Below are positions 5,651-36,309 of a stretch of DNA of 64,000 nucleotides, one piece after another. How positions within the stretch are numbered: the first letter of the stretch is position 1; every line of letters begins with the position of its first letter. The position numbers and the translations under genes are program-made. The notes under the pieces were generated by a model. That model was given only the letters and a program-made list of their open reading frames with translations. It was not told the origin of the DNA and did no database searches. Source of the stretch: Roseibium limicola (GTDB lineage: Bacteria; Pseudomonadota; Alphaproteobacteria; Rhizobiales; Stappiaceae); contig NZ_JAFLNF010000002.1 in the NCBI RefSeq assembly GCF_017313085.1, positions 558,001-622,000 on the forward strand, in the 5' to 3' direction.

Positions 5651-6076
5651 TCAGGTAAAGTTCGACCACAGCGGCGGAGAGGCAAGTTCCAGGACATTGC
5701 CGTCGGTGTCATTGAAATAAAGACTTTTCCCGCCCTGCGGCCAGGTCACCTCACTGATGATCTCGATCCCTTGACTGCCAAGATAGTTCCGCCACGGCTC
5801 ATAGTCGGCGCCAACGATGTGAAAGGCAAAATGAGCCGGACCTTGCGCGTGATGCCCAGGCACCACCCCACCGGGCGTCGGTACATCCTCGGCAGTGGCA
5901 CCACGCAGAAACACCAGAAGGGTCTGCGCCGGCCCGGCGTCGTAGGCGCTGAGTCTGTCACCTCCGATCATGCGCTCGAGCCCCAAAACACCGGCATAAA
6001 ATCCATGGGCAGCTTCCATGTCGTCAACATAGACGGCGGTTTCCAGAATACCGGAAATGGCGGGGGCATGAGACAA
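5651..6076 (-). CDS. VOC-family (glyoxalase/dioxygenase-fold) protein
   Basis: About 141 residues with one VOC module pair: ILETAVYVDDMEAAHGFYAGVLGL at the start, then AHFAFHI, and SLYFNDTDGNVLELASPPLW at the end. The metal-ligand positions expected in this fold include a histidine in the second half (HFAFHI) and the glutamate of NVLELA. Substrate cannot be told. The TTG at 6076 is preferred because AAGG stands nine bases upstream and the encoded SHAPAISG start is usual in the family; the frame could also begin at a GTG at 6106 without a ribosome site. Confidence 0.7.
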   Translation of the reverse strand: MSHAPAISGILETAVYVDDMEAAHGFYAGVLGLERMIGGDRLSAYDAGPAQTLLVFLRGATAEDVPTPGGVVPGHHAQGPAHFAFHIVGADYEPWRNYLGSQGIEIISEVTWPQGGKSLYFNDTDGNVLELASPPLWSNFT

Positions 6077-6124
6077 GGCGAATGACCTTAAGCGTTGAGG
6101 AGCCACAGTTGCGAAATCGTAGAC

Positions 6125-6161
6125 GCAAAAAAGGCAGCCCGCAAAGGCCGCCTTCTTTTTA
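6125..6161 (-). terminator. Terminator downstream of ohr
   Basis: AAGGCAGCC and GGCCGCCTT form a stem with one mismatch and a CGCAAA loop, flanked by AAAAAA on one side and TTTTT on the other. It can work in both directions; on the minus strand it closes the ohr transcript that ends at 6260. Confidence 0.65.
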
Positions 6162-6259
6162 ACCGATCAACCGGCGCAGGCTGTTCTTTTCCCCTCCGCT
6201 CAAAAACATCTCGCGAGCGGGACAAGGTCGGACCACACCATCCGAACCTGGACCAAGGC

Positions 6260-6688
6260 TTAGACGACGACGGTCAGATCAACGTCGATGTTGTTGCGCG
6301 TGGCATTGGAATACGGGCAAACCTGATGCGCTTTTTCCACCAGGTCCTGCGCCTTGGCCTTGTCCATGCCCGGAAGCGAAACTTCAAGCGCAACGCTCAG
6401 GCCGAAACCACCTTCATCGCGCGGGCCGATACCGACTTCCGAGGTGATGCTTGCATCGGAGGGAAGCGAAGTCTTCTCCTGCCCGGCAACCACCTTCAGC
6501 GCGCCGAGGAAGCAGGCTGCATAACCGGAGGCAAACAGCTGCTCAGGATTATTGCCTTCCTTGCCGTCGCCACCAAGCTCCTTCGGTGTGGACAATTTGA
6601 CCTTGAAGCTTCCGTCCAGCGTCTGTGCCGTGCCGTCACGGCCACCAGTCGCCTTGGCTTTTGTCGTGTACATCACTTTAACACCCAT
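6260..6688 (-). CDS. ohr: Organic hydroperoxide resistance protein
   Basis: The 142-residue protein is a typical Ohr of the OsmC family: GNNPEQLFASGYAACFLGAL contains the peroxidatic Cys59, and HQVCPYSNATRNN the resolving Cys124. Ohr reduces organic and fatty-acid hydroperoxides with lipoyl-dependent recycling in the cytosol. GGAG is seven bases before the ATG. It is divergent from the MarR-type gene at 6865-7689, the standard ohr/ohrR arrangement, and should be derepressed when OhrR is oxidised. Confidence 0.93.
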   Translation of the reverse strand: MGVKVMYTTKAKATGGRDGTAQTLDGSFKVKLSTPKELGGDGKEGNNPEQLFASGYAACFLGALKVVAGQEKTSLPSDASITSEVGIGPRDEGGFGLSVALEVSLPGMDKAKAQDLVEKAHQVCPYSNATRNNIDVDLTVVV

Positions 6689-6778
6689 GGAATTTCTCCT
6701 TTGTTTCTTTGGTTTTAGTCCTTCGGGCAGCAGGTCTATGCCTCCAGGAATTTTAGATCGTGTACGATTTATTCTTCT

Positions 6779-6807
6779 GCGATATAATTTCTCGCGTCTT
6801 TTGTCAA
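6779..6807 (-). promoter_or_regulatory. Probable ohr promoter
   Basis: On the minus strand TTGACA (6802-6807) is separated by 17 bases from TATCGC (6779-6784), in an AT-rich stretch between ohr and ohrR. The surrounding AATTATAT and TACGATTTATTC sequences could form the OhrR operator, but no perfect dyad is visible. Confidence 0.5.
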
Positions 6808-6864
6808 TCTCTTGCGAACGGGCCAGCAGAGAGGTAAACCGGCTACATGGTAGAAAAGGATCAA

Positions 6865-7689
6865 ATGTCCCTGCTCGACGTCATGGGCACCATGGCTGAG
6901 AGCACGAAGGTCGCAGCGGAAACGCGCCCCAAGAGCAAGCAAGTCCGACGCGCTAAACTTGCACATCCCGCTCAGGCGGCTGATGTGCCTGAAGAAACGC
7001 CCCAGCAGGCGCCTGCAGAGAGAACGGACGAACACCAAGAGAGTTCCTCCACTGCGTCACCCACGGTAGACCCCACCCCCATTCTGCCAAAAGCAGAAGC
7101 AGCCGCCGCTGGACAGACGAAGAAGCCCAAACCAGGCAAGGCGCCTTCAGCTGCGAAAAAAGCTGAAGGCGGATCTCTAGAGACAGAAAAAGCGTCGAAG
7201 GCTTTCTCAGGACCCGACATGTCTGCGGCCGACGAGTTGATGGACGCCCTCTCCCTCGACCGCTTCCTCTGCTTCTCGCTGTATTCGGCAAACCATGCGA
7301 TGAACCGGGTCTATCGGCCCTTGCTTCAGCAGCTGGGCCTCACCTATCCACAGTATTTGGCGATGGTGGTTCTATGGGAAAAGAACGATCAGCTTGTCGG
7401 CGACATCGGGTCGCGGCTGCATCTGGAATCCAACACCATTACCCCCCTGCTGAAGCGTCTTGAAAGCCTCGGACTGATCAGCCGGGAGCGCAGCCTCAAG
7501 GATGAGCGCCAGGTGCGGGTGAAACTGACCCGCAAGGGCCATGCTCTGAAGCAGAAGACAAAGGGCTTCGCCGGCTGCATTCTGGATGCCAGCGGTATTT
7601 CGCTTGAGGACCTTAGTGCGCTTCAGGAGAAGATTTCCGTGCTACGCAACAACATGCTGAAAGCCCAGGAAAAAAGCGACACCGCCTGA
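6865..7689 (+). CDS. ohrR: OhrR-type MarR regulator with a long N-terminal extension
   Basis: The C-terminal 150 residues are a MarR/OhrR repressor: LDRFLCFSLYSANHAMNRVY with the peroxide-sensing cysteine (about residue 136), GLTYPQYLAMVVLWE, and the winged helix NTITPLLKRLESLGLISRERS with KDERQVRVKLT. OhrR binds between itself and ohr and lets go when this cysteine is oxidised. The first 118 residues are rich in Ala, Pro, Lys and Glu, look disordered, and are not usual for the family. The ATG at 6865 has AAGGA six bases upstream. Another ATG at 7219 with AGGA upstream would give a normal-length OhrR, so the extension needs proof. Confidence 0.8.
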   Translation: MSLLDVMGTMAESTKVAAETRPKSKQVRRAKLAHPAQAADVPEETPQQAPAERTDEHQESSSTASPTVDPTPILPKAEAAAAGQTKKPKPGKAPSAAKKAEGGSLETEKASKAFSGPDMSAADELMDALSLDRFLCFSLYSANHAMNRVYRPLLQQLGLTYPQYLAMVVLWEKNDQLVGDIGSRLHLESNTITPLLKRLESLGLISRERSLKDERQVRVKLTRKGHALKQKTKGFAGCILDASGISLEDLSALQEKISVLRNNMLKAQEKSDTA

Positions 7690-7703
7690 GGCGTGTCGCT
7701 TTA
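7673..7703 (+). terminator. Terminator overlapping the ohrR stop codon
   Basis: AAAGCGACAC-CGCC and GGCGTGTCGCTTT form a long stem with one bulged C; the TGA stop of ohrR is in the loop. T-residues follow on the plus strand and A-residues flank the left side, so it may serve both ohrR and the convergent mgtE gene. Confidence 0.65.
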
Positions 7704-7726
7704 GGCCCGAACTCGACGCAATACTT

Positions 7727-9142
7727 TTAAAACGGCAGGCCGAACCACAGCGCAGCGATGCTGAGGAACGCAAAGAAGCCGACAACATCTGTCACGGTCG
7801 TCACAAAGACGCTCGACGCAATCGCCGGGTCAACCTTCAGCCTGTCCAGCGCAACAGGAATGAGAAGGCCTGACAATCCGGCAAACAGCATGTTGATGAC
7901 GATCGCCCCACCAATGACCACACCTAACCCCAGATCCTGGAACCACAGCCACGCCGTCAATCCAATCAGGATGGCCAGAGCAACACCGTTCAACAGCCCT
8001 ACCAGAACTTCCCTGCGCAGAACCCGGATCATGTTTCGGGTACCCAGTTCCTGAGTGGCAATCCCGCGCACGGCAACCGTCATTGTCTGGGTTCCGGCAT
8101 TGCCGCCCATGGAAGCAACGATCGGCATCAACACCGCCAGCGCCACCATCGCCTCAATCGTCTGATCGAACAGGCCAATCACCGCAGAGGCCAGCACGGC
8201 CGTTCCCAGGTTGACCACAAGCCATGTCAGACGGGAGCGCGCCGTGGTCAGAACGCTATCGGAAATTTCTTCGTCCCCAACGCCCCCCAGAGCACGCATG
8301 TCCTCTTCGGCCTCTTCCTGGATGACATCAACAATGTCATCGACAGTCAGGATACCGACAAGACGGTCGGTTTCATCGACAACGGCAGAGGAAACCAGGT
8401 TGTAGCGCTCAAACCGGCGCGCAACCTCTTCCTGATCCTCGGTGGCCAGAACCGCATGACGGGTTTCGTCCATCACCGAGGTGACTTTCTGATCGCGTTT
8501 GGTGCGCAGGATCTTGTCCAGCGCCACAGCCCCCAGCAGCTTGAAGGCCGGATCCACGACGTAAATTTCATAAAAGCTGTCAGGCAGGTCCTGAGCTTCA
8601 CGCATGTAGTCAATCGTCTGGCCGACCGTCCAGAATTGCGCTACGGCGATAAACTCACTTTGCATACGACGGCCGGCGCTGGACTCCGGATAGTCCAGGG
8701 CCTTTTGCAACTGGGCACGGTCTGCATATGGCAGACCACCAAGGATCTCGGCCTGATCCTCTTCATCCAGATCTTCCAGGATGTAGACAGCATCATCGCT
8801 GTCAAGTTCACCCAGCGCCTCCGCAATCTCCGAATTCGGCAGGGCTTCCAGAAGCTTGATGCGGACGGCTTCGTCCGTCTCGGTCAGCGCCGTGTAATCG
8901 AACTCATCACCGAGAAGCCGAACAAAATCCGCCCGGGCATCTTCGGCCAGCGTTTCAATAAGATCGCCGGTATCTGCTTCGTGCAGGTTGGCAGCGAGAA
9001 GGATAAGCTCGGCGGAATCCTCTGCCTCGATGGCAGCTTCAATGGCCGCAATGAAGTCGGAGTCCAAGCGTCCGTCTTCATCCCGCACAGGCAGGGCGAT
9101 CGGCTCAATCGCATCTTCAGCGATCGGATCAAGATTTACCAT
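7727..9142 (-). CDS. mgtE: MgtE-family magnesium channel
   Basis: The 471-residue protein has an acidic helical MgtE N-domain (residues about 35-140, with LDSDDAVYILEDLDEEDQAEIL), two CBS domains (about 145-275, ending VGILTVDDIVDVIQEEA) and five membrane helices from about residue 305. The conserved pore motif reads PIVASMGGNAGTQTMTVAVRG, and the metal-site aspartate lies in VFVTTVTDVVGFF. MgtE lets Mg2+ in through the inner membrane and is gated by Mg2+ bound at the CBS and N domains. It is convergent with ohrR. A second MgtE is coded at 29349. Confidence 0.92.
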   Translation of the reverse strand: MVNLDPIAEDAIEPIALPVRDEDGRLDSDFIAAIEAAIEAEDSAELILLAANLHEADTGDLIETLAEDARADFVRLLGDEFDYTALTETDEAVRIKLLEALPNSEIAEALGELDSDDAVYILEDLDEEDQAEILGGLPYADRAQLQKALDYPESSAGRRMQSEFIAVAQFWTVGQTIDYMREAQDLPDSFYEIYVVDPAFKLLGAVALDKILRTKRDQKVTSVMDETRHAVLATEDQEEVARRFERYNLVSSAVVDETDRLVGILTVDDIVDVIQEEAEEDMRALGGVGDEEISDSVLTTARSRLTWLVVNLGTAVLASAVIGLFDQTIEAMVALAVLMPIVASMGGNAGTQTMTVAVRGIATQELGTRNMIRVLRREVLVGLLNGVALAILIGLTAWLWFQDLGLGVVIGGAIVINMLFAGLSGLLIPVALDRLKVDPAIASSVFVTTVTDVVGFFAFLSIAALWFGLPF

Positions 9143-9363
9143 TCAGCCCCCGCCCTCATTCATCGCAACGGACTTGCAAATCGCACCCGCTCGCACGCCC
9201 CAGCAGTATCCATACCCGAGACAATTTGCCATCATTTTGGCAGCCTGCATCCACAAGCTTCCCCAGGCCAACGGGTCTAGCCTACCCGAAGTTCCATAAA
9301 GACCCAGCTGTATTTTCACGTAACGTTCGGAAATAAAAGGCAGATGAGTTAAATGCGTCAAGC

Positions 9364-9690
9364 TCAACGCTGGCAGGATTTTACCCCGACCTGCTTTCGG
9401 ACATCCCCCAGATAACGCCGCGCAGCAGCAGGCAACACGCGCTCATCCTCAGACACACACCGAACCCGAATGCCCAGAACCAGCCGCGCCGGGCGCTGCT
9501 GCGATGCGCAGATACCGCCCGCCCTCAGAACCTTGCGCTCAAGGGCGAAAAGTTGCTGACACGTCAGGCCTCCAAGGCTCGAAGACGGCTTGCGCATGGC
9601 CAGCTGCAAGGCAACTGGGTCGGCCACAACCGGGCCGCACATCAGCAGCATGACCAAGCCAAGAACAACACCCTTGGTCACTTGCCGCAT
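9364..9690 (-). CDS. Small secreted protein, unknown
   Basis: The 108-residue product starts with a signal peptide (MRQVTKGVVLGLVMLLMCGPVVADP, cleavage likely after about residue 24) and has a mature part with SLGGLTCQQLFALERKVLRAGGICA, which loosely resembles the short YARHG-type helix motif, and four cysteines that could form disulfides. Periplasmic location is likely. It follows the SMR gene after four bases and is probably cotranscribed. The frame could begin at 9723, inside the SMR gene, but the ATG at 9690 begins the signal peptide directly. I do not recognise a function. Confidence 0.55.
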   Translation of the reverse strand: MRQVTKGVVLGLVMLLMCGPVVADPVALQLAMRKPSSSLGGLTCQQLFALERKVLRAGGICASQQRPARLVLGIRVRCVSEDERVLPAAARRYLGDVRKQVGVKSCQR

Positions 9691-9694
9691 GAGT

Positions 9695-10039
9695 TCAGTG
9701 CCCGGTGCTGCTTGAAAAGACATTCACCACAACAACACCTAGAATGATCAGTCCAAGCCCGATTAGAGCCGCCAGGTCCAGGCTTTGCCGAAACAGAAGC
9801 ACACCAACCAGACTGATCAGTACGATCCCCAGACCGCTCCAGACCGCATAGGCAATCCCCACGGGAAGCACCTTCAGGCTGATCGACAGGAGGTAGAATG
9901 ACACGCCGTAGCACAGTGTCATGGCCAGCACAGGGCCGGACTTTGTAAACTGCTGAGAGGCCTGCAGAAACGAAGTTCCTGCCACCTCAAGAGCGATCGC
10001 GATGGCCAAAGCACCGTAGCTGTAAAACAGCGGACTCAT
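9695..10039 (-). CDS. Small multidrug resistance (SMR) family transporter
   Basis: The product of 114 residues has four membrane helices and the SMR signatures: the essential glutamate in ALEVAGTSFLQAS (Glu18), FYLLSISLKVLPVGIAYAVWSGLG in the second and third helices, and a last helix IGLGLIILGVVVVNVF. SMR proteins work as antiparallel dimers that exchange protons for lipophilic cations or guanidinium-type compounds. GGGAG is six bases before the ATG. Substrate cannot be told; EmrE, QacE or Gdx subtypes are all possible. Confidence 0.85.
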   Translation of the reverse strand: MSPLFYSYGALAIAIALEVAGTSFLQASQQFTKSGPVLAMTLCYGVSFYLLSISLKVLPVGIAYAVWSGLGIVLISLVGVLLFRQSLDLAALIGLGLIILGVVVVNVFSSSTGH

Positions 10040-10745
10040 ACGTGTCTCCCTGACAGCGATTTTCCAGCCCCCGCCCTAGCTGGTCGCACCCAGAAGAGCA
10101 AGTCACACTCGTCCGAAGGGTCTCACAACCTGTCACAACAAGTCACTCAACGGATCCATGAGGAACGCCCCAGCTCCGCATCAGGACATCATAAAGGGAA
10201 TTGGATTGAGGCGAATTCACTATGGGATTTAAGTCGAGCCATCGCTCAGCGCTGCCGACCTATTCCACAAAGCTATTGGCTCCCAAAGAACGGCCCACGA
10301 CAACCATTTCGGTGGTTCGCACAGGTCTGCTAAAATTGCCATTATCCGGATGCTGTGCTCAGGGGACGGACGCAGTAGTCCGTTGCAAAAACCGTCATCG
10401 AGTTCCAGCGACCGGAAGGCTACACCGGCTCAACGGGCCGTCCGACGCGGCATCGTCTTGCTCACGCTGCAAACCTCCCTCCGCTTGCCAGCATATGGCC
10501 AGACCCCACGTGTTCCACGCGCAATCGATCAAACAACCAAGAGCCGCACCGACCACCTGCCGTTCTTCCTCCGGCTGGAAGGGAATCTACAAATCAGTTC
10601 ATCCTCTGTCGCGATTGACGAGACCGCTTGCGCACGAGATTAACGGATGGGTTTGGGGTGCAGCACAAAGCGGGGACGCATGGCACCTGTCAGCGAGTGC
10701 GTGCGGTTCTACGCTCGTCAAAGATGAACAAGTAAGCAGTGGGCC
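10040..10745. other. About 700 bp with no supported gene
   Basis: The open frames here (for example 10222-10791 on the plus strand) encode Ser/Arg/Pro-rich low-quality sequence, have no ribosome sites and overlap the PAS gene end. I see no RNA gene or repeat. It lies on the island side of tRNA-Leu, so it may be decayed accessory DNA. Confidence 0.5.
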
Positions 10746-11927
10746 TCAATTCGTAAGGTTCAAATCAAGCAGACGCGTAAAGAAATTCTGAGCCTTTTCG
10801 TTCGCTGGTTTGTCCTTTGCCTTCCGAACAGGCAGAAACTCCAGAACGATTTGCTGATTTGTCCGCTCGCCAATAAAACAGCTGCGAATTCGATAGTGAC
10901 GCTTGAGGCCGATGTGACTTTCGACCTGCCACACACGTCCTGCATCCCAGCCCACACTTTCGAGCACTTCTGTAAGATCACGCACATCGGCGGCGCTCAT
11001 CAACTTGTCAGACAGTCGCTCCGTCCCAATCTGAGTGGCCGACAGGCCAAGCTCACCCCGACCTGCCTTGTTGGCATATATGATCCGTCTTGAACCAAGA
11101 TCCGCGACCAGTATTGGCGTCGGAACGGCATCCAAGACATTGGTAGCGTCAATGCCTTCTGGCTGTCTGTTGGCCTCCCCAACAAAGATACAGCCGCCGT
11201 GCGGATGGCTCAGTTCCAGAGGATGAAGCCTGAATTGGAGCTCTTGTGCCTGACCAGCTGCTTGCGGCAGTTGCATGGAGCCTTGAATTTCCTTTTTGTT
11301 TTCCAATAGATCAGAAAAGGATACAACAAGCCTCTTTCCCAGGTGATTTGGAATTGTACGAACGTCACGCCCGATGATGTGCTTTGCATTCTTAATTGCA
11401 AAACTACGCAAGAAGGCCTGATTGGCAAATCGAATGACGCCCTTGCTGTCTGTCATCAAAACCGCTGTAGGGGACGAGACAAAAACGTGGGACAGGCCTT
11501 TCAAGAAGTTGGGCAACTCAAAAGCGCTAGGGCTATTAGCCCGACATTCTTTCATCAGCCCAACGACCAGGGGAGCCTTCTTGTCGGAGACCAGGGCAGC
11601 AACCAGCTCAAACGAAGCAGTGCCGGCTTCCGTCTTCATCGTGACCTGAATGGGCGATGAGAGGCCGTTCTGAACAGCGTCGGAGATCAGCTGCATAAAC
11701 CGTTTTCTGTCCGGTTGGGCGTAGAATTGCAAGGCTTGTTGGATCGTGAACTTGGCCACTCGATAGCCACGAACGCTGGTCACGTCAGTTCGCTGCCAGC
11801 AGAGTTCCTGGGCAATGGGATCATATGCCCAATAAGAGACGCCGAGCGTTGACAGAATCGCACTGGTTTCCGGATTGGGAACCAGCTGCCGCATGGAACG
11901 GAGCAGAATGTTGATATCGGAACTCAT
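10746..11927 (-). CDS. Multi-PAS protein without output domain
   Basis: The 393-residue cytosolic protein seems to hold three PAS-like units: residues about 20-130 (ILSTLGVSYWAYDPIAQELCW), about 145-255 (SSPTAVLMTDSKGVIRFANQAFL) and about 265-375 (AVPTPILVADLGSRRIIYANKAGR). No kinase, GGDEF, EAL or DNA-binding domain follows; the C-terminus ends soon after the third unit. It may bind a partner or be a remnant of a larger sensor protein. There is an AT-rich stretch upstream at 12000-12130, and the ribosome site is weak. It is flanked by about 700 bp without genes and by a broken integrase, which fits a horizontally acquired segment. Confidence 0.65.
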   Translation of the reverse strand: MSSDINILLRSMRQLVPNPETSAILSTLGVSYWAYDPIAQELCWQRTDVTSVRGYRVAKFTIQQALQFYAQPDRKRFMQLISDAVQNGLSSPIQVTMKTEAGTASFELVAALVSDKKAPLVVGLMKECRANSPSAFELPNFLKGLSHVFVSSPTAVLMTDSKGVIRFANQAFLRSFAIKNAKHIIGRDVRTIPNHLGKRLVVSFSDLLENKKEIQGSMQLPQAAGQAQELQFRLHPLELSHPHGGCIFVGEANRQPEGIDATNVLDAVPTPILVADLGSRRIIYANKAGRGELGLSATQIGTERLSDKLMSAADVRDLTEVLESVGWDAGRVWQVESHIGLKRHYRIRSCFIGERTNQQIVLEFLPVRKAKDKPANEKAQNFFTRLLDLNLTN

Positions 11928-12380
11928 ATTATCGGGCTCTTAATCGACGTGAAATCTCTTCAGGCCAATTGAGCATTCCAGACTTGAAGGAAGAGTGAAT
12001 TGGATCAACTAAACTTAAGAGTTACAATAAAATAATCAGATATTTTTTGGATTTTTTGAAGTAAAAACAAAAATAAGTATTTATACTTCCGAGTAAATGC
12101 ATACACTCCAGATAAGCTCTTCCGCAACTGAAATTCTAGACTAACAAGTAATCTTGCGGGCTTCACAGGAATGGCCATTGTATCGCAAGATCCAGACTGC
12201 TCGGGCGCCAGCACCCGGCTGCGTTTGGCTTGGTCGCGGGCCTATGAGCTTTTTCTGAGGTTTGCCGCTCAATGCCCCCCCCCCCGACCCGCCGAAGCCC
12301 GGGGTGGGCATGACCGGCCCGACACCTGCTAGCTGCTGAGGTCCAGGTCACACTGACGGCAAGTATTGAGCGGCAGCCGG
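11928..12380. other. AT-rich then C-rich gene-free stretch
   Basis: 12000-12130 is markedly AT-rich with the 14-base dyad AAGTATTTATACTT at 12075-12088 and may carry the promoter of the PAS gene. 12275-12285 is a run of eleven C. I see no coding sequence that can be defended; the end near 12380 may hold frame-shifted remains of the integrase. Confidence 0.45.
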
Positions 12381-22111: not shown

Positions 22112-22405
22112 CGGCGCTCCGCCCTGAGTTACTTTTGCTTGATCTGATTTTGTAGGCGTGTGCACACGCCGGTGCAATAAGGCCAAAGAACGATGCGCTA
22201 AGCTTTTCGACAAACTTGGCATTTTCAAATGCCCATCTTGCGCTCGAAAGCACTCCGGCATGGCCTCCCGCCCCGCCAGGCTTCGGCGCGAAAAGGTCGG
22301 AACTGGCAAGATCGGTCTGGATTTTACCAGCAAGCCTCTCTAAACCCCCAGCCAGGTTCTCCCGCCATTGTTCGTGGCACCCTCAGCCTGCGAGTTTTCA
22401 CACCC

Positions 22406-22777
22406 ATGGACGCAATCCATCTCAACGACCTGGCGTTTTTCGCATACCACGGCGTCTTCGATGAAGAAGCACGGCTGGGCCAGCGTTTTCTCGTCGACCT
22501 GACCTGCTGGCTCGATTTGTCCCTGCCCGGCCAGACGGACGCCTATGAAGACACGGTCTGCTACGCCAGTCTGGTCAAGGCGGCGGAAGCGGCCGTGACC
22601 GGAAACCGCGTCCAATTGCTCGAAAAGCTTGCACAGATCATCGCCGACGCGATCTTCGATGCTGATGAACGCATTGCACGCGTCAGCATCAAAGTGCGTA
22701 AGCCCGGCGCGCCGCTGCCCATTGCCGTTGGCACTGTCAGCGTTGAAATCACCCGAGACCGACCCGCCATTTCCTGA
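22406..22777 (+). CDS. folB: Dihydroneopterin aldolase
   Basis: The 123-residue protein carries the FolB motifs: LNDLAFFAYHGVFDEEARLGQRF with the catalytic glutamate, CYASLVKAAEAAV, NRVQLLEKLAQIIADAIF, and VSIKVRKPGAPLP with the active-site lysine. It converts dihydroneopterin to 6-hydroxymethyl-dihydropterin in folate synthesis. It is read on the strand opposite to pccA and pccB and lies between them; no other folate gene is near. The upstream part of the frame is non-coding. Confidence 0.92.
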   Translation: MDAIHLNDLAFFAYHGVFDEEARLGQRFLVDLTCWLDLSLPGQTDAYEDTVCYASLVKAAEAAVTGNRVQLLEKLAQIIADAIFDADERIARVSIKVRKPGAPLPIAVGTVSVEITRDRPAIS

Positions 22778-24813: not shown

Positions 24814-24903
24814 TGCGTTTCCCTTTAGACTTCATCTCTTGGAGAATTTCCTAGCATGGCCGCCCGAACTCGCAAAGTGGACAAAAGAGGGGGCGTTACT
24901 TCC

Positions 24904-24982
24904 ATGCTAAAATGAGCTTCATCATTGAAACGAAAGAATAAAAAAATGGAACCCTTACGGAACGTGCTCATTTATTTAGCAT
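24904..24982. repeat. Long-range inverted repeat before the Anbu cluster
   Basis: ATGCTAAAATGAGC (24904-24917) pairs with GCTCATTTATTTAGCAT (24966-24982), a 14-bp stem with a three-base bulge and a 48-base AT-rich spacer. It lies in the 250-bp gap between divergent pccB and the ATP-grasp gene. It may be a divided operator or a leader hairpin. Confidence 0.4.
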
Positions 24983-25065
24983 AGTAGCCTCCAGATTACG
25001 CTTGGAGGGACTGATTAAATTTGCCATGCTTGCCTAACAAGATGGCAACGATCAAAGGGGAGGCA

Positions 25066-26490
25066 ATGTCCGAAGAACGGTCATTTTTCAACGAGATGCT
25101 GGACGAAGAGGGCAACCCTCGTGCGCCCTATGCCATGATGGCGGACTGGCTTGACTCCAAGCCGCCGAACTATCTGAAGCGTAAATCACGTGAAGCTGAA
25201 ACGATTTTTCGGCGGCTCGGCATCACATTCGCGGTGTATGGCGCTCAGAAGGCAACCGAGCGCTTGATCCCGTTTGATCCAATCCCCCGGGTGATCTCCG
25301 CCGCCGAATGGCGCCGTCTTTCCGCCGGCATCGATCAGCGTGTCCGCGCGCTCAACGCCTTCCTCCACGACATCTACCATCGCCAGGAAATCATTCGGGC
25401 GGGACGCATCCCTGCCGAATTGATCCTCCAGAACGAGGCCTTCCTGCCCGAAATGGTCGGCTTCACTCCGGCCCGCAAAGTCTATGCACACATAATCGGC
25501 ACTGATCTTGTGCGCGTCTCGGAAGATGAGTTTTACGTTCTCGAAGACAACACCCGCACCCCCTCTGGCGTCTCCTACATGCTGGAAAATCGGGAAACCA
25601 TGATGCGGCTGTTCCCGGACCTCTTCCAGAGGCACCGTGTCGCCGACGTCGAGCAATATCCTGAGCACTTGCGCGCCACGTTGGAAAGCGTCGGTCCCGA
25701 TCAGTCCAAGTCGGATCAGACAATTGTTGTGCTGACACCCGGGATCTACAACTCTGCCTATTTTGAACACGCCTTCCTTGCCGACAGCATGGGCGTGGAG
25801 CTGGTGGAAGGACGCGATCTCTTCGTCGACAATGGCCGTGTTTACATGCGTACAACGCGTGCTCCGCGTCCGGTGGACGTCATTTATCGTCGTATCGATG
25901 ACGCATTCCTCGATCCCCTCACCTTCAATCCCGACAGCTTCCTCGGCGTACCGGGTCTGTTCGATGCATATCGCGCCGGCAACGTCACGATCTGCAACGC
26001 GCCGGGCACCGGGATTGCCGATGACAAGGCAATCTACGCCTACGTCCCTGAGATCATCGAGTTCTACACAGGCCAAAAGCCGATCCTCAACAATGTCCCG
26101 ACATGGCATTGCTCGCGCTCGGATGATCTGGCCTATGTTCTCGACAACCTCCAGGACATCGTCGTCAAGGAAGTTCATGGTTCCGGCGGCTACGGCATGT
26201 TGATCGGCCCCACAGCCTCGAAGCGCGAGATCTCGGAGTTCCGAAAGATCCTGATATCCAACCCCTCCAACTACATCGCCCAGCCGACCTTGGCTCTCTC
26301 CGCCTGCCCAACCCATGTATCGTCCGGAGTTGCGCCCCGTCATGTTGACTTGCGTCCCTATGTTCTCATCGGGGATCAGGTTCGTATCACCCCCGGCGGA
26401 TTGACACGCGTGGCCCTCAAGAAGGGCTCACTGGTGGTCAATTCCAGTCAGGGCGGCGGGACAAAAGACACTTGGGTGCTGGAGGATTAA
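25066..26490 (+). CDS. Circularly permuted ATP-grasp protein (DUF404/DUF407 type)
   Basis: The 474-residue protein belongs to the circularly permuted ATP-grasp type 2 family: LRLG-like start RRLGITFAVYG, VISAAEWRRLSAGIDQRVRAL, FLHDIYHRQEIIRAG, YVLEDNTRTPSGVSYMLENR, LTPGIYNSAYFEH, VKEVHGSGGYGMLIGP and the end VNSSQGGGTKDTWVLED. Such proteins are predicted amidoligases that join amino acids or peptides using ATP. AAGGGGAGG stands six bases before the ATG at 25066. The alpha-E gene starts four bases behind the stop, so the two are translated from one transcript. Confidence 0.9.
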   Translation: MSEERSFFNEMLDEEGNPRAPYAMMADWLDSKPPNYLKRKSREAETIFRRLGITFAVYGAQKATERLIPFDPIPRVISAAEWRRLSAGIDQRVRALNAFLHDIYHRQEIIRAGRIPAELILQNEAFLPEMVGFTPARKVYAHIIGTDLVRVSEDEFYVLEDNTRTPSGVSYMLENRETMMRLFPDLFQRHRVADVEQYPEHLRATLESVGPDQSKSDQTIVVLTPGIYNSAYFEHAFLADSMGVELVEGRDLFVDNGRVYMRTTRAPRPVDVIYRRIDDAFLDPLTFNPDSFLGVPGLFDAYRAGNVTICNAPGTGIADDKAIYAYVPEIIEFYTGQKPILNNVPTWHCSRSDDLAYVLDNLQDIVVKEVHGSGGYGMLIGPTASKREISEFRKILISNPSNYIAQPTLALSACPTHVSSGVAPRHVDLRPYVLIGDQVRITPGGLTRVALKKGSLVVNSSQGGGTKDTWVLED

Positions 26491-26493
26491 GCC

Positions 26494-27444
26494 ATGCTAG
26501 GACGGACTGCAGCATCACTTTTCTGGATGTCCCGCTTTCAGGAGCGCGCGCAAAATTCCGCGAAGCTTCTGGAGGTGGCCTACCGCACCGACATGATGCC
26601 CTCGAATCGCTCGAAAGATGCCGGCGACTGGCGCTTTGCCCTGATCGCCTCCGGTTCTGAATTCGGCTATTCGGAAAAGATCGGCGAGCTCACACCGCGC
26701 GGCGTGATCAACTACATGGTCTTCGACCGGGACAACCCGTCATCGGTACGCGTGTGCCTGGAGAATGCCCGCAACAACGGGCGAGCGGTGCGCACGGGGA
26801 TCACTGCCGAACTCTGGGAAAGCCTCAACACGACGTATCTCGAGTTCTCGGATGTGAACCCGCTGTCGATCACTCAGGACAAACTCCCAGAATTCCTTTC
26901 GTGGATCAGCCAGCGCTCACACCTGTTCCGCGGAGCGCTTCTCAATACGCTGTTGCGCGACGACGGCTATTACTTTTCCCAGCTTGGCAATTTCGTGGAG
27001 CGGGCAGACAACACGGCGCGTATTCTCGATACCCAGTATTGGGTGCTGCTGCCGGACAATGACGTCATCGGTGACGGCTCTCTGGAACGCCAGCAATGGT
27101 CAGGCATTCTGCGGGCCCTGTCCGGACTGCGCAGCTATCGCTTCGCCTATCCGGATGCCAAGCTGAAAGCGACGAATATCGCGGAGTTTCTGATCCTCCG
27201 GAAGGAAATGCCCCGGTCCCTCGCCTATTGCTGCGACTGGATTGACGACACGGCCGATGACCTCGCCCAGTTCTATGGCGAACGATTGCCAAGTCTCGAT
27301 ATGGCTGCTGCCAACTGGACGGCAATGCGCGCCACCACGATAGAGGATGTCTATCGTCGCGGTCTGCACGATTTCCTGCTCGACTTCATCTCGAAGAACA
27401 ACAGCTTCGCGATGCAATTGTCAGAAGATTACAACTTCGCCTGA
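26494..27444 (+). CDS. Alpha-E domain protein (DUF403)
   Basis: The 316-residue all-helical protein shows the alpha-E signatures: LGRTAASLFWMSRFQERAQN, the conserved FFSRAD-like block YYFSQLGNFVERADNTARILDTQYW, GILRALSGLRSYRFAYP and the closing FISKNNSFAMQLSEDYNF. Alpha-E proteins nearly always occur with a permuted ATP-grasp protein and a transglutaminase; they are thought to be partner subunits or peptide-binding scaffolds. GGAGGATTAAGCC lies before the ATG, inside the preceding gene's end. Biochemical role unknown. Confidence 0.88.
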   Translation: MLGRTAASLFWMSRFQERAQNSAKLLEVAYRTDMMPSNRSKDAGDWRFALIASGSEFGYSEKIGELTPRGVINYMVFDRDNPSSVRVCLENARNNGRAVRTGITAELWESLNTTYLEFSDVNPLSITQDKLPEFLSWISQRSHLFRGALLNTLLRDDGYYFSQLGNFVERADNTARILDTQYWVLLPDNDVIGDGSLERQQWSGILRALSGLRSYRFAYPDAKLKATNIAEFLILRKEMPRSLAYCCDWIDDTADDLAQFYGERLPSLDMAAANWTAMRATTIEDVYRRGLHDFLLDFISKNNSFAMQLSEDYNFA

Positions 27445-27525
27445 GCCGAACGCGAAACGACCTGACGGCAGTCGATTTTCGGCTCTCGTCAGGGCCCAAC
27501 AAACAAAAACGCCGGATGGAAACCA

Positions 27526-28341
27526 ATGTTGCTGACTGTCAAACACACCACCTTCTACCGATATGACAGCCCGCTGGCCAACGCCATGCAGCAACTCCGT
27601 CTGACGCCCAGTGACGGGCCGACCCAGAAAGTCATCGACTGGCGAGTCGATGCCACAGGCATCGACCGGGCGACCTGCTACACGGATGCCTTCGGCAACT
27701 GGGTTCAGATGGTTTCTTCCTCCGATGTGATCGAAGAGGTCCAGATCACTGCGACTGGCACTGTCGAAACCGTCGACAAGGCCGGCGTTCTGGGAATGGA
27801 AGAAAGTACGACACCTGAGCGGGTTTTCACCCGCATAACGCCACAGACGCAATCCAACCAGGCGATCCAGCGCCTCGCGGCACAGGCTTCCGGTGAGGAT
27901 CAGGTTGCAGGCTTTCACGCCCTGATGCACGCGATCCACGACAAGGTGGAGTACAAGGTCGGCGTCACCGAGACCCACGCGACGGCAGCGTCGGCCCTGT
28001 CGGCTGGCGAAGGCGTTTGTCAGGACCACGCCCACATCTTCATCGCCTGCGCACGCTCTCTCGGCGTCCCTGCACGCTATGTTTCCGGCTACCTGCTGCT
28101 GGAAGACGATGACACCTCCGAGGCCCACCACGCTTGGGCAGAAGTGTACCTGACCGGCATTGGGTGGGTCGGTTTTGATGTTTCCAACGAAATATGTCCC
28201 ACAGACCGCTATATCCGCTTGACCACGGGCCTGGATTCGCGTTCCGCTGCTCCGATACGAGGGATCCGTTTCGGCGGACTGGAGGAAAACCTGAGGGTCG
28301 AGGTCGAGGTTGCCCAAGGCGCGAGCCAGCAGCAGCAGTAA
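27526..28341 (+). CDS. Bacterial transglutaminase-like protease/amidase
   Basis: The protein of 271 residues has the N-terminal beta domain typical of this family (LTVKHTTFYRYDSPLANAMQQLRLTP) and a transglutaminase core with the catalytic cysteine in AGEGVCQDHAHIFIACARSLG, the histidine in EAHHAWAEVYLTGIGWVGFD and the aspartate in DVSNE. Members cleave or form amide bonds. The gene follows alpha-E after 81 bases and precedes Anbu. The C-terminus is short and glutamine-rich (SQQQQ). Together with the ATP-grasp protein it suggests making and trimming of a peptide-like product. Confidence 0.88.
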   Translation: MLLTVKHTTFYRYDSPLANAMQQLRLTPSDGPTQKVIDWRVDATGIDRATCYTDAFGNWVQMVSSSDVIEEVQITATGTVETVDKAGVLGMEESTTPERVFTRITPQTQSNQAIQRLAAQASGEDQVAGFHALMHAIHDKVEYKVGVTETHATAASALSAGEGVCQDHAHIFIACARSLGVPARYVSGYLLLEDDDTSEAHHAWAEVYLTGIGWVGFDVSNEICPTDRYIRLTTGLDSRSAAPIRGIRFGGLEENLRVEVEVAQGASQQQQ

Positions 28342-28384
28342 ATCGCTCCTCAGCAGCCAAATTTCCAGTCGCAACCGTTAAAGT

Positions 28385-28416
28385 GATTGCCAGGTTTTCT
28401 GTATATCGTGGCAATC
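28385..28416. repeat. Inverted repeat in the transglutaminase-Anbu gap
   Basis: GATTGCCA and TGGCAATC pair over a 16-base spacer in the 218-bp gap before anbu. There is no T-run, so it is more likely an operator or RNA-processing hairpin than a terminator; it could set anbu apart from the genes before it. Confidence 0.35.
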
Positions 28417-28559
28417 TACATGTAACGCATTCCCGCTATGATATGTCCTGGTAAAACAGGTACCGTTGGCATTCTCGCACGTCGCTGATCCGGATTTCCC
28501 GGCCAGCCGGTTGCGAGGCAGGAAAGCGCCGCTGTCCGGCGATCGATGGAACACAGACA

Positions 28560-29291
28560 ATGACCTATTGCGTTGGCCTCAAACTGGACCGCGGGCTTGT
28601 TTTGGCTGCCGACACCCGAACGAATGCCGGACTGGACAATATTGCAACTTTCAAGAAGCTGCATGTCTGGGAAAAGGCAGAAGATCGGATGATCACGCTG
28701 CTGTCAGCCGGCAATCTCGCCGTGACTCAGGCGGTTGTTTCATTGCTGAGCGAGCACATCAACTCCGCCCCTGAAGGGCGTCCGACGTTGATGAGCGTCG
28801 ACACCATGTTCCAGGCCGCCCGCCTGATCGGCAGCGCCGTACGGGAAGTCCAGGCCATCGACGGCGAGTCCTTGAACGCTTCGGCGGAAAACTTCTTCGT
28901 CACCTTCATTCTGGGGGGCCAGATCAAGGGCGAAGAGCCACGGCTTTTCCAGATCTATTCCGCCGGCAACTTCATCGAAGTCGGCAACGACACCCCTTAC
29001 GTCCAGATTGGCGAGCACAAATACGGCAAGCCGATCCTCGACCGGGTGGCGCAATCCGACATGCGCCTTGGTGAAGGCGCCAAGATGGTCCTCCTGTCGT
29101 TCGACAGCACCCTGCGTTCCAACCTCTCCGTTGGCATGCCGATCGATCTGCTCGTCTACAACAAGGACAGCTTCAGCTCCGAGCGCCAGGTCCGCATCGA
29201 GCAGGATGACCCCTATTTCCAGAAAATGTCTCAGACCTGGTCCAACAGCTTGCGCGATGCCTTTACGGATGTGGAACCATTCGACATCTGA
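28560..29291 (+). CDS. Anbu proteasome-type peptidase
   Basis: The 243-residue Ntn-fold protein begins MTYCVGLKLDRGLVLAADTR, so loss of Met would leave Thr as the N-terminal nucleophile without a propeptide, as in Anbu (COG3484). Other marks are the aspartate in AADTRTNAG, the lysine in TFKKLHVWEK, LLSAGNLAVTQAVVSLL and VAQSDMRLGEGAKMVLLSFDS. Anbu is a bacterial relative of HslV and proteasome beta subunits that forms ring or spiral assemblies; its substrate is unknown. It shares this cluster with the ATP-grasp, alpha-E and transglutaminase genes, the usual company of Anbu. No unfoldase ATPase is nearby. Confidence 0.92.
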   Translation: MTYCVGLKLDRGLVLAADTRTNAGLDNIATFKKLHVWEKAEDRMITLLSAGNLAVTQAVVSLLSEHINSAPEGRPTLMSVDTMFQAARLIGSAVREVQAIDGESLNASAENFFVTFILGGQIKGEEPRLFQIYSAGNFIEVGNDTPYVQIGEHKYGKPILDRVAQSDMRLGEGAKMVLLSFDSTLRSNLSVGMPIDLLVYNKDSFSSERQVRIEQDDPYFQKMSQTWSNSLRDAFTDVEPFDI

Positions 29292-29348: not shown

Positions 29349-30818
29349 ATGAGCCTGCCGGAAAGATCCACGATGAGTTCTGCGTCTTCTTCAGCCGCCC
29401 CTGCCGACAGTCAGGGACCGGTTCCCCTTGCCTGGCACCGTGAACCCGACAATGAGCCGCTCGCCGAAAATGAAGCTGTTCTGCGCGCCATCCGGCAAAT
29501 GGTGAAGGAAGGTCAGCATCGCTCCGAACTCGTCGAGCTGCTCAAGCTCTGGGATCCGATCGACGTCATGCAGATGCTGGTTCGGCTGCGCCTGAAGCAA
29601 GCGCGCAAGTTGTTCCAATGGCTGCCGGCCAACCCTTCCATCAAGGTGATTGCCGCCCTGCGCCCGGAATTCCGCTCGCTGTTGATGGAAGAATCCACGC
29701 TGGAGCAATTTCGCGACATTCTCGCCGCCCTCGATCCCGAAGACGCGACCGAGATGCTCAACGGCTTTCCCGACGATATCGCCGAAGAACTGGCGCAGCG
29801 CCTGCCCGACATCGAAGACATCGCCTACCGCGCTGCTTTTGCCGATGATAGCGCCGGTCGGATCATGGCGCGAAAGTTCGTCGCCTTGCCGCAGAGCTGC
29901 ACCGTGGATGACGCTGTCGCCCAGATCCGGGCCGAGGCCGAGCGCATCCGCAAGGTCTTCACCCTCTATGTGCTCGACGACGAAGGACGCCTTGTCGGCT
30001 CCGTCGAACTGGGCCGACTGCTGTTGGCACCTGAAGGGGCGACACTCCAGAACGTCATGAGCAGCGACTTCATTGCTGTCACACCGGAAACCGATCAGGA
30101 AGACGTGCTGCGTCTCGCCCGCAAGCGGGACATGCGCACCGTGCCGGTGATGGACGCAGCAGGTCACCTCGTCGGCCGCGTAACACCAAAACAGCTGACG
30201 CGGATCGCCGCCGAGGAGGCCAGCGAAGATCTGCTTTTGATGAGCGGTGTGTCCGGCGAATCGAAAACCAATGATTCAGTCTGGCGGATCGTGAGAGGTC
30301 GCCTGCCCTGGCTGCTGGCCGGACTGATCGGTGCAACTGTGGCTGCCAGCGTCGTCGGTTCCTTCGAAGATCAGCTGGCGCGGGCAGCCATTCTGGCGGC
30401 CTTCATCCCCGTCACCATGTCGATGGCGGGCAATGCAGGGCTTCAAGCCTCCGCCGTCGCGGTTCAGGGCATTGCCAGCGGCACACTCTGGTCAGGCGAC
30501 ATCGGCTTCCGGCTGTTGCGGGAACTAGGCGCTGCGTTGATCAACGGCCTGATTGCAGCCGTGATCCTGGCATGTCTGACGATTGCCGCCTCTCTCGTCA
30601 TTCCGATCCACGCGCCCTACAATCTTGCGCTGGCGACTTCCATGTCGCTGCTCTGCGTCACGACAATTGCTGCCATGGTCGGCGCGACCATTCCAATCGC
30701 GCTCGACAAGCTGGGGGTTGATCCCGCCATGGCCACAGGCGTCTTCATCACCTCGTCAAACGACGTGCTTGGCGTTCTGGTGTTTTTCGGGATGGCGACA
30801 GCGTTTTATCTCGGCTGA
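29349..30818 (+). CDS. Second MgtE-family transporter, diverged pore
   Basis: The protein of 489 residues repeats the MgtE plan: helical N-domain (VIAALRPEFRSLLMEE and LDPEDATEMLNGFPDDIAEEL), two CBS domains (about 170-290) and five membrane helices. The pore motif reads PVTMSMAGNAGLQASAVAVQG, so G, T and R of the first MgtE's GGNAGTQ...VRG are replaced by A, L and Q; the aspartate near the last helix is kept (SSNDVLGVLVFF). Metal preference may thus differ. It begins 57 bases behind anbu. An ATG at 29373 with GGAAAG upstream is an alternative start. Confidence 0.85.
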   Translation: MSLPERSTMSSASSSAAPADSQGPVPLAWHREPDNEPLAENEAVLRAIRQMVKEGQHRSELVELLKLWDPIDVMQMLVRLRLKQARKLFQWLPANPSIKVIAALRPEFRSLLMEESTLEQFRDILAALDPEDATEMLNGFPDDIAEELAQRLPDIEDIAYRAAFADDSAGRIMARKFVALPQSCTVDDAVAQIRAEAERIRKVFTLYVLDDEGRLVGSVELGRLLLAPEGATLQNVMSSDFIAVTPETDQEDVLRLARKRDMRTVPVMDAAGHLVGRVTPKQLTRIAAEEASEDLLLMSGVSGESKTNDSVWRIVRGRLPWLLAGLIGATVAASVVGSFEDQLARAAILAAFIPVTMSMAGNAGLQASAVAVQGIASGTLWSGDIGFRLLRELGAALINGLIAAVILACLTIAASLVIPIHAPYNLALATSMSLLCVTTIAAMVGATIPIALDKLGVDPAMATGVFITSSNDVLGVLVFFGMATAFYLG

Positions 30819-34389: not shown

Positions 34390-35178
34390 TTACTCGCCCG
34401 GTTGCACGGCCTGGTCCTTGCTTTCCGTGCCCATAGCCTCGAACCGCTTCACTTCCGCGTCGTAGTTCGGAGCGATGGTCCCGCAGACCCGGTCCCAGAA
34501 CGAGAAGAAGTTGGCGTAGTTATAACGGAACTTCGAATGATGCTGATCGTGGAATGTCACGCAGACCATCGGCGACGGGATGCGCGACAACGGCGATGCG
34601 TAGAACTCGAAGCCTGAATGACCAATTGTGCCATTGAAATGATCCCAGAGCCGATGTGCCACCAGAACCACTGCCGGGATGGGCAGGAAGATCACCGCAA
34701 ACAGATAGTAGCTCTGCATGACGAAAGCATCGAGCAGGTCATCCGAGTATGTGCTCCAGACCGTCGGTGCGACGGACTTGTGATGCTCGGCATGGAACCT
34801 GTAGAGCCACTTGGTGTGCATCAGCCTGTGCCCCCAGTAGAACCAGGTATCGAAGGCGAAGACAGACACCACAAACATCAGGATGACCGACCACCAGCTC
34901 AGCTCCAGCGGATCCACAAGGGTCCAGCCCTTCAGCGACAGGAACACACCGCCGGCCAGACAGCCTGCCGTCACCGTCAGCGAATAGACACTCTGACGGA
35001 TTTCCTTCCACATGCGCTTTTCGCCCCGACGCTTCGGTTGAATCCGCCGGTCCGGATGGCGATTCTGGATCTGAACCAGCACCCAGCCCGTGGCGAAATA
35101 CAGGAAGACGTTGACGCCATAGCAGATCGCGTAGATCGGCAGAAACTCAAGCACAACTTCAAGAATTTGATTCAACAT
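34390..35178 (-). CDS. Sterol desaturase/fatty acid hydroxylase family protein A
   Basis: The 262-residue membrane protein has the di-iron histidine clusters of the family: WGHRLMHTKWLYRFHAEHHKS (HxxxH and HxxHH) and, later, CVTFHDQHHSKF. Several membrane helices come first (IYAICYGVNVFLYFATG and following). Such enzymes put hydroxyl groups or double bonds on lipids. The frame opens at 35190, but GGGA before the ATG at 35178 and alignment with its neighbour favour the inner start. It stands directly behind a paralogue, so the two arose by duplication. Substrate not known. Confidence 0.85.
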   Translation of the reverse strand: MLNQILEVVLEFLPIYAICYGVNVFLYFATGWVLVQIQNRHPDRRIQPKRRGEKRMWKEIRQSVYSLTVTAGCLAGGVFLSLKGWTLVDPLELSWWSVILMFVVSVFAFDTWFYWGHRLMHTKWLYRFHAEHHKSVAPTVWSTYSDDLLDAFVMQSYYLFAVIFLPIPAVVLVAHRLWDHFNGTIGHSGFEFYASPLSRIPSPMVCVTFHDQHHSKFRYNYANFFSFWDRVCGTIAPNYDAEVKRFEAMGTESKDQAVQPGE

Positions 35179-35222
35179 ATTGAATCCCATCGGTGTTCAA
35201 ATCTGATTTCATGGCGCCTTGT

Positions 35223-36017
35223 TCACGCTGCCGGGCGTTGTACCCGTGTCTCGCGGGCTGTCGGGATCTCACCAGTCGTCTCGATCGTCTCAACAATACC
35301 ATCATATCGCGGATGCACCGTCCCCATCAGCCGGTCCCAAAGCGACAGGAAGTTTCCAAAGTTATAGTGGAACTGGGAATGATGCAGATCATGATAGGTC
35401 GTGCAAAGCAGCGGGAACGGCGCCCGCGACGAACGTCCAGCGAAATACTCAAACCCCGAATGCCCGACCATGCCGGAAATCTGGTCGAACAGCCGCAAGG
35501 CAAAGATCGAAAGCGCGGGCACTGGCAGCACCAACCAGACGACAAGATAGAAGCCATGCTCGATCAGCGTGTCGACGGTGGTCGCACTGTCGTTGCTCCA
35601 CACGGTCGGAGCCACAGACGCATGGTGTGGCTGGTGAAACTTGTAAAACGCCGGATGGTGCAGCAGGCGATGGCCCCAGTAGAACCAGGCATCGAACACC
35701 ACAAAGCAGACGGCGAACATCAGCGGGAATGACCACCAGCTGAGTTCCAGCGGCGCAAACAGAACCCAGCCCTGAGTCTGGGCAAAATAGCCGGCCGAGA
35801 GCAAAAACGAAGAGGTCGCCAGCGCATGCAGCGAGGCAAGGATTTCCGCCCGCGCCCGCTTCATCCCGTCGCGTTCCTTCTGGATCCGCCGGTCCGGATT
35901 GCGCGCATTGATTTCGTTCATCACCAGTCCGGTGGCAAAATACACCACCAGCGATGCGGCATAGACCACCACAAAGACAATTAGGAACTCACCAAGGAGA
36001 TCAAAAAACGCTGACAT
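35223..36017 (-). CDS. Sterol desaturase/fatty acid hydroxylase family protein B
   Basis: The 264-residue paralogue has the same plan: N-terminal helices (LIVFVVVYAASLVVYFATG), the shared ARNPDRRIQKERDGMKRA loop, WGHRLLHHPAFYKFHQPHHAS and the later CTTYHDLHHSQFHYNFGNF. The WSxDSAT/SYSDDL region and the closing PRYD and NYDAEV blocks align with protein A. Start set at 36017 by that alignment; the frame is open to 36065. The 44-base gap to A suggests one transcript. The pair may work on different chain lengths or form a mixed complex, which is inference. Confidence 0.85.
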   Translation of the reverse strand: MSAFFDLLGEFLIVFVVVYAASLVVYFATGLVMNEINARNPDRRIQKERDGMKRARAEILASLHALATSSFLLSAGYFAQTQGWVLFAPLELSWWSFPLMFAVCFVVFDAWFYWGHRLLHHPAFYKFHQPHHASVAPTVWSNDSATTVDTLIEHGFYLVVWLVLPVPALSIFALRLFDQISGMVGHSGFEYFAGRSSRAPFPLLCTTYHDLHHSQFHYNFGNFLSLWDRLMGTVHPRYDGIVETIETTGEIPTARETRVQRPAA

Positions 36018-36309
36018 GAGGTGTCCGAACCTTACCTGTTCCATGGCGCCGTCCAGCTCAAACACTGGCTCACACGTGGAATCGCTCGTCCCCTCCCTCC
36101 AGGATCATAATGGCGTGGCCGGTATTGACACAAGCGGCGTTGCCTATCCGATATCGGAGCAACCTATTCTTGGGATCTAGTGGGTGACGACTTGCTGTTC
36201 GCGTTTCAAGCACAAATTGCCCAAAATGCCCAGTGCGATCATGACATTTGACAAGAGAACGAGGCAATAAGCCGCGGCAGAGCCTTTGCCCCTTCCGACA
36301 AGCGGGCCC

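Follow-up and report, generated by a model that had tools for sequence, protein, structure and literature searches.

The Anbu operon is a known, widespread set of genes whose description is credited to Iyer 2009 by two later papers (PMC6376114 and PMC5666114, in the parts of each that concern it). Several functions have been proposed for it in print, none of which was found proven in the openly licensed literature, and Anbu itself, a relative of the proteasome, has no known substrate. The closest parallel among working systems is the glutathionylspermidine synthetase/amidase, in which one ligase and one amidase act on the same conjugate. Here we compare with these systems a four-gene copy from Roseibium limicola, at positions 25066 to 29291 of a 64,000-nucleotide stretch of DNA (contig NZ_JAFLNF010000002.1, positions 558,001 to 622,000), hereafter the window. 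The four genes are a member of the described operon, real and ordinary in kind. An earlier note on this DNA had presented their function as undescribed and the cluster as the best candidate in the window, which overstates its novelty given that later papers cite the 2009 description. Our own reading, held tentatively and with somewhat less than even confidence, is that the operon runs a make-and-break amide cycle, in which a ligase pair would make a small product that hydrolases would break, and that this cycle is linked to nitrogen limitation.

The operon and its distribution

The features of the locus are as follows.

24814..25065, no strand: upstream region, no sigma-54-like site, G+C 44% versus 58% in the genes
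25066..26490, + strand: circularly permuted ATP-grasp (type 2), putative active amide ligase, 474 amino acids (PF14403, PDB 3n6x)
26494..27444, + strand: alpha-E protein, all-helical, two homologous halves, 316 amino acids (PF04168)
27526..28341, + strand: transglutaminase-like protein, probably a cysteine hydrolase, 271 amino acids (PF08379, PF01841)
28560..29291, + strand: Anbu, N-terminal-threonine proteasome relative, 243 amino acids (PF00227, PDB 5nyj)

That these are four same-strand genes of the families named in the earlier note is borne out by their Pfam and PDB matches. The ATP-grasp matches PF14403 over its whole length (1-374 of 374, E 1.3e-170, 567.8 bits, above the curated cut-off) and PDB 3n6x at E 2.6e-198; alpha-E matches PF04168 at E 1.1e-77; the transglutaminase-like protein matches PF08379 (E 1.9e-20) and PF01841 (E 8.4e-24); and Anbu matches PF00227 (E 1.6e-10) as well as the solved Anbu structure 5nyj over its full length, 1-243 (E 2.6e-98). 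For the ATP-grasp gene the open-reading-frame list gives a TTG start at 25021, and the ATG at 25066 sits behind the ribosome-binding-like AGGGGAGG. The coordinates give intergenic gaps of 3, 81 and 218 bases, the first of which had been put at 4, and the grouping is known here from the genes alone. The window thus has the families, the order (ATP-grasp, alpha-E, transglutaminase-like, Anbu), the single strand and the Anbu N-terminal Thr, Asp and Lys of the published operon; it differs in having no upstream sigma-54-like site, and no further distinguishing trait was found in the comparison.

Co-occurrence of the families was surveyed in 200 genomes of the same phylum, that of R. limicola included, with the window's Anbu protein as the Anbu query at E 1e-10, a search that very divergent copies could escape. 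The circularly permuted ATP-grasp was found in 116 genomes (113 over the cut-off), alpha-E in 112, PF08379 in 110, Anbu in 68, DUF2126 in 63 and Peptidase_Mx in 29. Cross-tables were built from the per-genome rows, whose totals equal these tallies. Every one of the 112 alpha-E genomes has the ATP-grasp, and the four ATP-grasp genomes lacking alpha-E show weak matches only (best E 1.2e-7). The PF08379 family occurs in 108 of the 112, and alpha-E in 108 of the 110 PF08379 genomes, in all 63 with DUF2126 and in 28 of the 29 with Peptidase_Mx. From these counts the ATP-grasp and alpha-E form the core, and almost all genomes that have it also encode a PF08379 protein. Alpha-E is present in 67 of the 68 Anbu genomes (the exception being G094), whereas Anbu went undetected by the window-Anbu query in 45 of the 112 alpha-E genomes, and because of this asymmetry Anbu is best seen as an add-on that requires the core, the core not requiring Anbu. 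Neither Anbu nor DUF2126 was found in 17 alpha-E genomes. In G094 (L068, G094:C88), where neither ATP-grasp nor alpha-E was detected, Anbu may be a true orphan or the assembly may have a gap.

Physical linkage was counted on the fetched stretches. Of 67 Anbu loci from other genomes, 58 have an ATP-grasp gene on their stretch and 9 have none; among the named loci the gene is present in 60 of 80, a set made up of the best-scoring 80 of 594 confirmed, some of whose stretches are cut by contig ends. The window's gene order (A-E-T-N) recurs in 88 of 148 loci, window included, counted over two locus sets that partly overlap. For the co-occurrence of family pairs in the 200 genomes, Fisher p values uncorrected for shared ancestry run from 2.5e-7 to 3.3e-52. 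The linkage beyond chance that the earlier note anticipated is therefore real; the strict co-occurrence of all four families that it proposed to look for is not what the genomes show, given the missing Anbu genes and the nine loci without an ATP-grasp. Among named Anbu sequences the closest relatives share 60-64% identity and come from metagenome-assembled genomes labelled Hyphomicrobiales, Rhizobiales or Hyphomicrobium, with one Rhodospirillales. Stand-alone Anbu genes were also seen beside mutS and/or an alpha/beta hydrolase gene (L052, L067, L082, L186, L204 and similar, families assigned by eye), and several stand-alone Anbu loci lie in Comamonadaceae-type genomes, apart from the ATP-grasp/alpha-E pair.

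The ligase pair

The window ATP-grasp keeps what appears from conservation to be a ligase-type active site, and its model folds like peptide and amine ligases; its activity is putative. Residues E160, N162, K321, K368, G377 (in the Gly-rich loop), D428 and N459 are all present. In an alignment of 91 stand-alone and 52 fused ATP-grasps, all the copies that 121 fetched stretches plus the window yielded, the stand-alone group shows no variation in the columns of E160, N162, R164, K321, K368, the Gly-rich loop, D428 and N459, and a seven-residue score is 7/7 in all 91, window included; the active-site roles assigned to these residues derive from that conservation rather than from a ligand structure. 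The AlphaFold model of the window protein matches glutathione, glutathionylspermidine and E-64 ligases, Cp1B among the last. It thus has the synthetase-domain fold of glutathionylspermidine synthetase without belonging to that family by sequence: a profile of 25 ATP-grasp orthologues searched against PDB chains at E 10 returned only 3n6x and one chance-level match. As that sequence test fails, the window system is taken as a probable analogue, not a member, of glutathionylspermidine synthetase/amidase. From GspS of Escherichia coli and the YgiC/YjfC peptide-spermidine ligases it differs in that the ATP-grasp finds no GspS sequence match at E 10 and has an extra, obligate partner in alpha-E; unlike in GspS, the hydrolase is a protein of its own, of the transglutaminase-like kind.

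Alpha-E is a tandem duplication of one domain. Its two halves align with an hhalign probability of 98.7 (E 1.6e-16); their score is 100.5, and none of 30 column-shuffled controls exceeds 17.8. Each half carries an ER motif (E17-R18 and E169-R170). The AlphaFold model is all-helical with a predicted local distance difference test (pLDDT) score of 94.6, and no solved structural relative was found by sequence search. Kinship with HEPN domains was considered and rejected, the apparent match to DUF403 in PMC3710099 being a mere prefix match to DUF4037.

A degenerate paralogue

Elsewhere in the R. limicola genome a second cluster (L004, positions 5702-12340, G000:C1) encodes a transglutaminase-DUF2126 protein, an ATP-grasp/alpha-E fusion and a second transglutaminase-like protein, with no Anbu beside it. 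It has paralogous ATP-grasp, alpha-E and transglutaminase-like parts in common with the window operon; it lacks the putative active site in its ATP-grasp half, and DUF2126 has been added. This degeneracy is general, since the seven-residue score is 0 or 1 of 7 in all 52 fusions, in which the residues invariant in stand-alone ATP-grasps are found in just 0-17% of sequences. The alpha-E part, by contrast, retains both ER motifs, and W11, R14, E17, R18, R100, G165, E169, R170 and R241 are each found in no fewer than 88 of 90 stand-alone and 48 of 52 fused copies, so that alpha-E is under constraint even beside a degenerate ATP-grasp.

In 51 sequences of DUF2126, which Pfam names a putative amidoligase, the transglutaminase part retains its Cys-His-Asp triad and many polar residues are invariant. 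DUF2126 is also present on 49 of the 52 stretches with a fusion. Of the remaining three, G191 has DUF2126 on another contig and G024 and G126 have none; in G194 and G197 a fusion is apparent by open-frame length, again without DUF2126. Because of these four genomes, the idea that DUF2126 replaces the dead ATP-grasp has exceptions. Anbu lies between fusion and DUF2126 at 10 loci, in one of which the DUF2126 gene is split, so the Anbu and DUF2126 clusters are sometimes merged.

The hydrolases

Cys165, His202 and Asp218 of the window transglutaminase-like protein, the triad to which the earlier note had pointed, fall in conserved columns. Counting only reading frames near an alpha-E or fusion gene, the relatives near alpha-E keep Cys in 50 of 54, His in 53 and Asp in 53, and the triad is kept in 47 of 47 copies adjoining a fusion. 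One of the four Cys-less copies is a contig-edge fragment; the others are in G163, G191 and G167. These loci (L094, L095, L111), where a transglutaminase-like gene adjoining alpha-E has lost its catalytic Cys, include two genomes, G163 and G191, without detected Anbu. For the window protein hydrolysis is at least as likely as attachment or transamidation, sequence and fold fitting either.

Anbu begins Met-Thr-Tyr-Cys, its Thr directly after Met as had been noted, and counting that Met it carries Thr2, Asp18 and Lys33. Among its relatives Thr2 is found in 66 of 67 (Ser in L053), and Asp18 and Lys33 in all 67.

The Peptidase_Mx family, a zinc peptidase, was considered as a replacement for the transglutaminase-like gene. 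It is present in three of the four alpha-E genomes without PF08379 (G082, G102, G196) and lies within the cluster in G102 and G186, cases too few for such a claim, and it also occurs in 25 of the 108 PF08379 genomes. At L069 and L080 a Peptidase_Mx gene lies within the Anbu cluster with no transglutaminase-like gene seen, perhaps as a substitute. In the R. limicola genome itself (L236/L237, G000:C16, near 229000) it directly follows an amidohydrolase gene, 8-oxoguanine-deaminase-like by eye, and in G035, G111 and G159, which belong to a single genus (L238, L240 and L241), its neighbour is of biotin-carboxylase type (pccA-like, by eye).

Regulation and nitrogen

A link between the family and nitrogen limitation is likely. 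According to the portions of the literature on which we draw here, PP_2686-2688 of Pseudomonas putida rise 11-15-fold under nitrogen limitation in the wild type, the operon being assigned to NtrB/NtrC (PMC7801951); PP2685-2687 rise 6.6-11.1-fold under nitrogen limitation and 2.6-4.6-fold under double limitation (PMC3325844); and PP_2685 and PP_2688 are both higher on nitrate than on ammonium (log2 4.44 and 3.99; PMC8050072). Within the same scope, a Burkholderia cenocepacia cluster (DUF404/407, DUF403 and two transglutaminase-like proteins) is placed in the NtrC and sigma-54 regulons (PMC5491218), COG3484 is listed in a sigma-54 survey (PMC12316311), and marine metagenomes show the operon families in association with urea genes (PMC3597751).

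Upstream regions were scanned for sigma-54-like sites with a consensus and weights of our own, at a threshold of 22 or more of 26. Of 149 loci, 50 have such a site ahead of the ATP-grasp gene, where 1.8% of random stretches have one; the corresponding counts are 0 of 52 for fusions, 4 of 54 for DUF2126 genes and 1 of 148 for Anbu genes. After removal of 2 of the 149 upstream regions for length or unknown bases and of 20 near-duplicates, 44 of 127 carry a site, against 1.92 in shuffled sequences and 2 on the antisense strand. The R. limicola genome encodes RpoN.

Proposed function and competing explanations

In the proposed cycle the ATP-grasp and its obligate partner alpha-E would use ATP to join an amine (an amino acid, polyamine or similar) to the carboxylate of a small peptide-like acid, a step likened to those of the glutathione, glutathionylspermidine and E-64 ligases. 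The transglutaminase-like protein, through its Cys, and Anbu where present, through its Thr, would then hydrolyse or trim the product or its attachment partner. Such a cycle would probably serve nitrogen salvage or buffering, since several hosts switch the set on under nitrogen limitation.

A good deal weighs against this proposal. In the published account, as far as it is drawn on here, purified Anbu of Yersinia bercovieri, Hyphomicrobium and Pseudomonas aeruginosa cleaved no proteasome peptides, and the operon proteins of Y. bercovieri did not interact specifically in pull-downs; a second paper, cited in the same partial way, calls the operon genes non-essential and mostly unchanged under many conditions. 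The AlphaFold model of the ATP-grasp is weak at several loops, the sequence profile found no glutathionylspermidine synthetase, and the cross-tables carry no correction for ancestry. No sigma-54-like -24/-12 site lies upstream of 25066, and 66 of the 127 ATP-grasp upstream regions, that of the window included, score under 20. In the same extract of PMC7801951, PP_2685 (Anbu) shows no rise in the nitrogen-limited wild type (1.12), and PP_2686-2688 are still 14-20-fold up in an rpoN mutant; because of this induction, simple sigma-54 control is disfavoured. Sigma-54 dependence of the family is thus supported by the sites and by B. cenocepacia and contradicted by one P. putida mutant. In the fetched loci, gene neighbours show no recurring nitrogen pathway, and those of Peptidase_Mx show no recurring theme in 20. 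A nitrogen pathway read from the neighbourhood was accordingly rejected: a ureidoglycolate lyase gene adjoins the ATP-grasp/alpha-E pair in one locus (L083), and one further deaminase-like neighbour occurs at L255.

Several other explanations were weighed. A bolder one, which we consider doubtful, posits two engines for an undescribed amide conjugate made and broken under nitrogen stress: one with a live ATP-grasp, on whose product Anbu and the transglutaminase-like protein would act, the other, its duplicate, with a dead ATP-grasp scaffold fused to alpha-E and DUF2126 as the live ligase. Alpha-E, whose ER motifs persist in both, would then be no accessory but the true catalytic or substrate-holding partner. 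Tagging akin to the Pup-proteasome system, with the ATP-grasp and alpha-E building or attaching a short tag, the transglutaminase-like protein processing it and Anbu degrading or removing it, strikes us as unlikely, despite published proposals along these lines (in the parts that concern the operon), the strong gene linkage and the preserved catalytic residues of Anbu. Too many alpha-E genomes lack detectable Anbu, no AAA+ unfoldase gene is present in the operon, and the reported inactivity of purified Anbu on proteasome peptides speaks against it too. Nor did a survey of 2487 small open reading frames within 600 bases of core genes, judged by eye, find a small peptide gene recurring across lineages; the recurring families listed look like shadow frames of conserved genes, low-complexity, or lineage-limited, one example being a small AsnC/Lrp-like protein of Mesorhizobium-type loci. 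Nothing therefore points to a tag or precursor encoded beside the operon, and a ribosomal one within that distance was rejected, although a tag assembled from free amino acids, or one whose gene lies elsewhere, would be compatible. The earlier suggestion that the pair builds a peptide or tag is supported in so far as the ATP-grasp has an intact ligase-type site and fold. The earlier note covers neither the published link to nitrogen nor the degenerate paralogue, which lies elsewhere in the genome.

General proteolysis during nitrogen starvation by Anbu and the transglutaminase-like protein, the ligase pair being a side function, is an idea already in print (in the part of that source used here) and would agree with the reported induction in P. 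putida; it appears rather improbable, as the constant core is the ATP-grasp/alpha-E pair and not Anbu, which was inactive on the peptides reported and in one P. putida study did not rise. We also find it rather improbable that the operon makes a small exported or signalling peptide or amide, natural-product-like, with the hydrolases as maturation enzymes. The predicted fold kinship with Cp1B would favour such a product, but the pair is wide-ranging for one, occurring in 112 of the 200 phylum genomes, and no tailoring or resistance gene recurs beside the operon (neighbour families assigned largely by eye). Within 6 kb the commonest neighbour family, seen in 38 of 201 loci at a median distance of 4.1 kb, is that of the ABC-ATPases, a broad class whose presence speaks neither for nor against export.

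Other neighbours in the window

An MgtE-type magnesium transporter gene (29349-30818, + strand) begins 57 bases past Anbu, and upstream of the ATP-grasp gene is a divergent carboxyltransferase gene, taken to be propionyl-CoA carboxylase beta. Both were rejected as operon partners, MgtE being near the cluster in the window and L069 alone of the loci searched, and PccB in the window only. At 22229-22777 an open reading frame resembling dihydroneopterin aldolase (folB) by eye lies between two propionyl-CoA carboxylase-type genes, and at 34390-36065 on the - strand are two adjacent sterol-desaturase/fatty-acid-hydroxylase-like genes (by eye), likely a duplication.

Implications

For a family whose members have been described since 2009, the points most worth passing on are the asymmetric way in which its members co-occur, the dead paralogue, the duplication within alpha-E and the breadth of the sigma-54-like sites. 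The degenerate ATP-grasp paralogue makes alpha-E, in turn, look like a part that matters on its own. Should the proposed make-and-break cycle hold, the window host may share in its nitrogen role. The search for the function of the operon is narrowed in any case: its core is the ligase pair, Anbu is optional, the ligase resembles peptide-amine ligases, and nitrogen limitation is the condition of interest.

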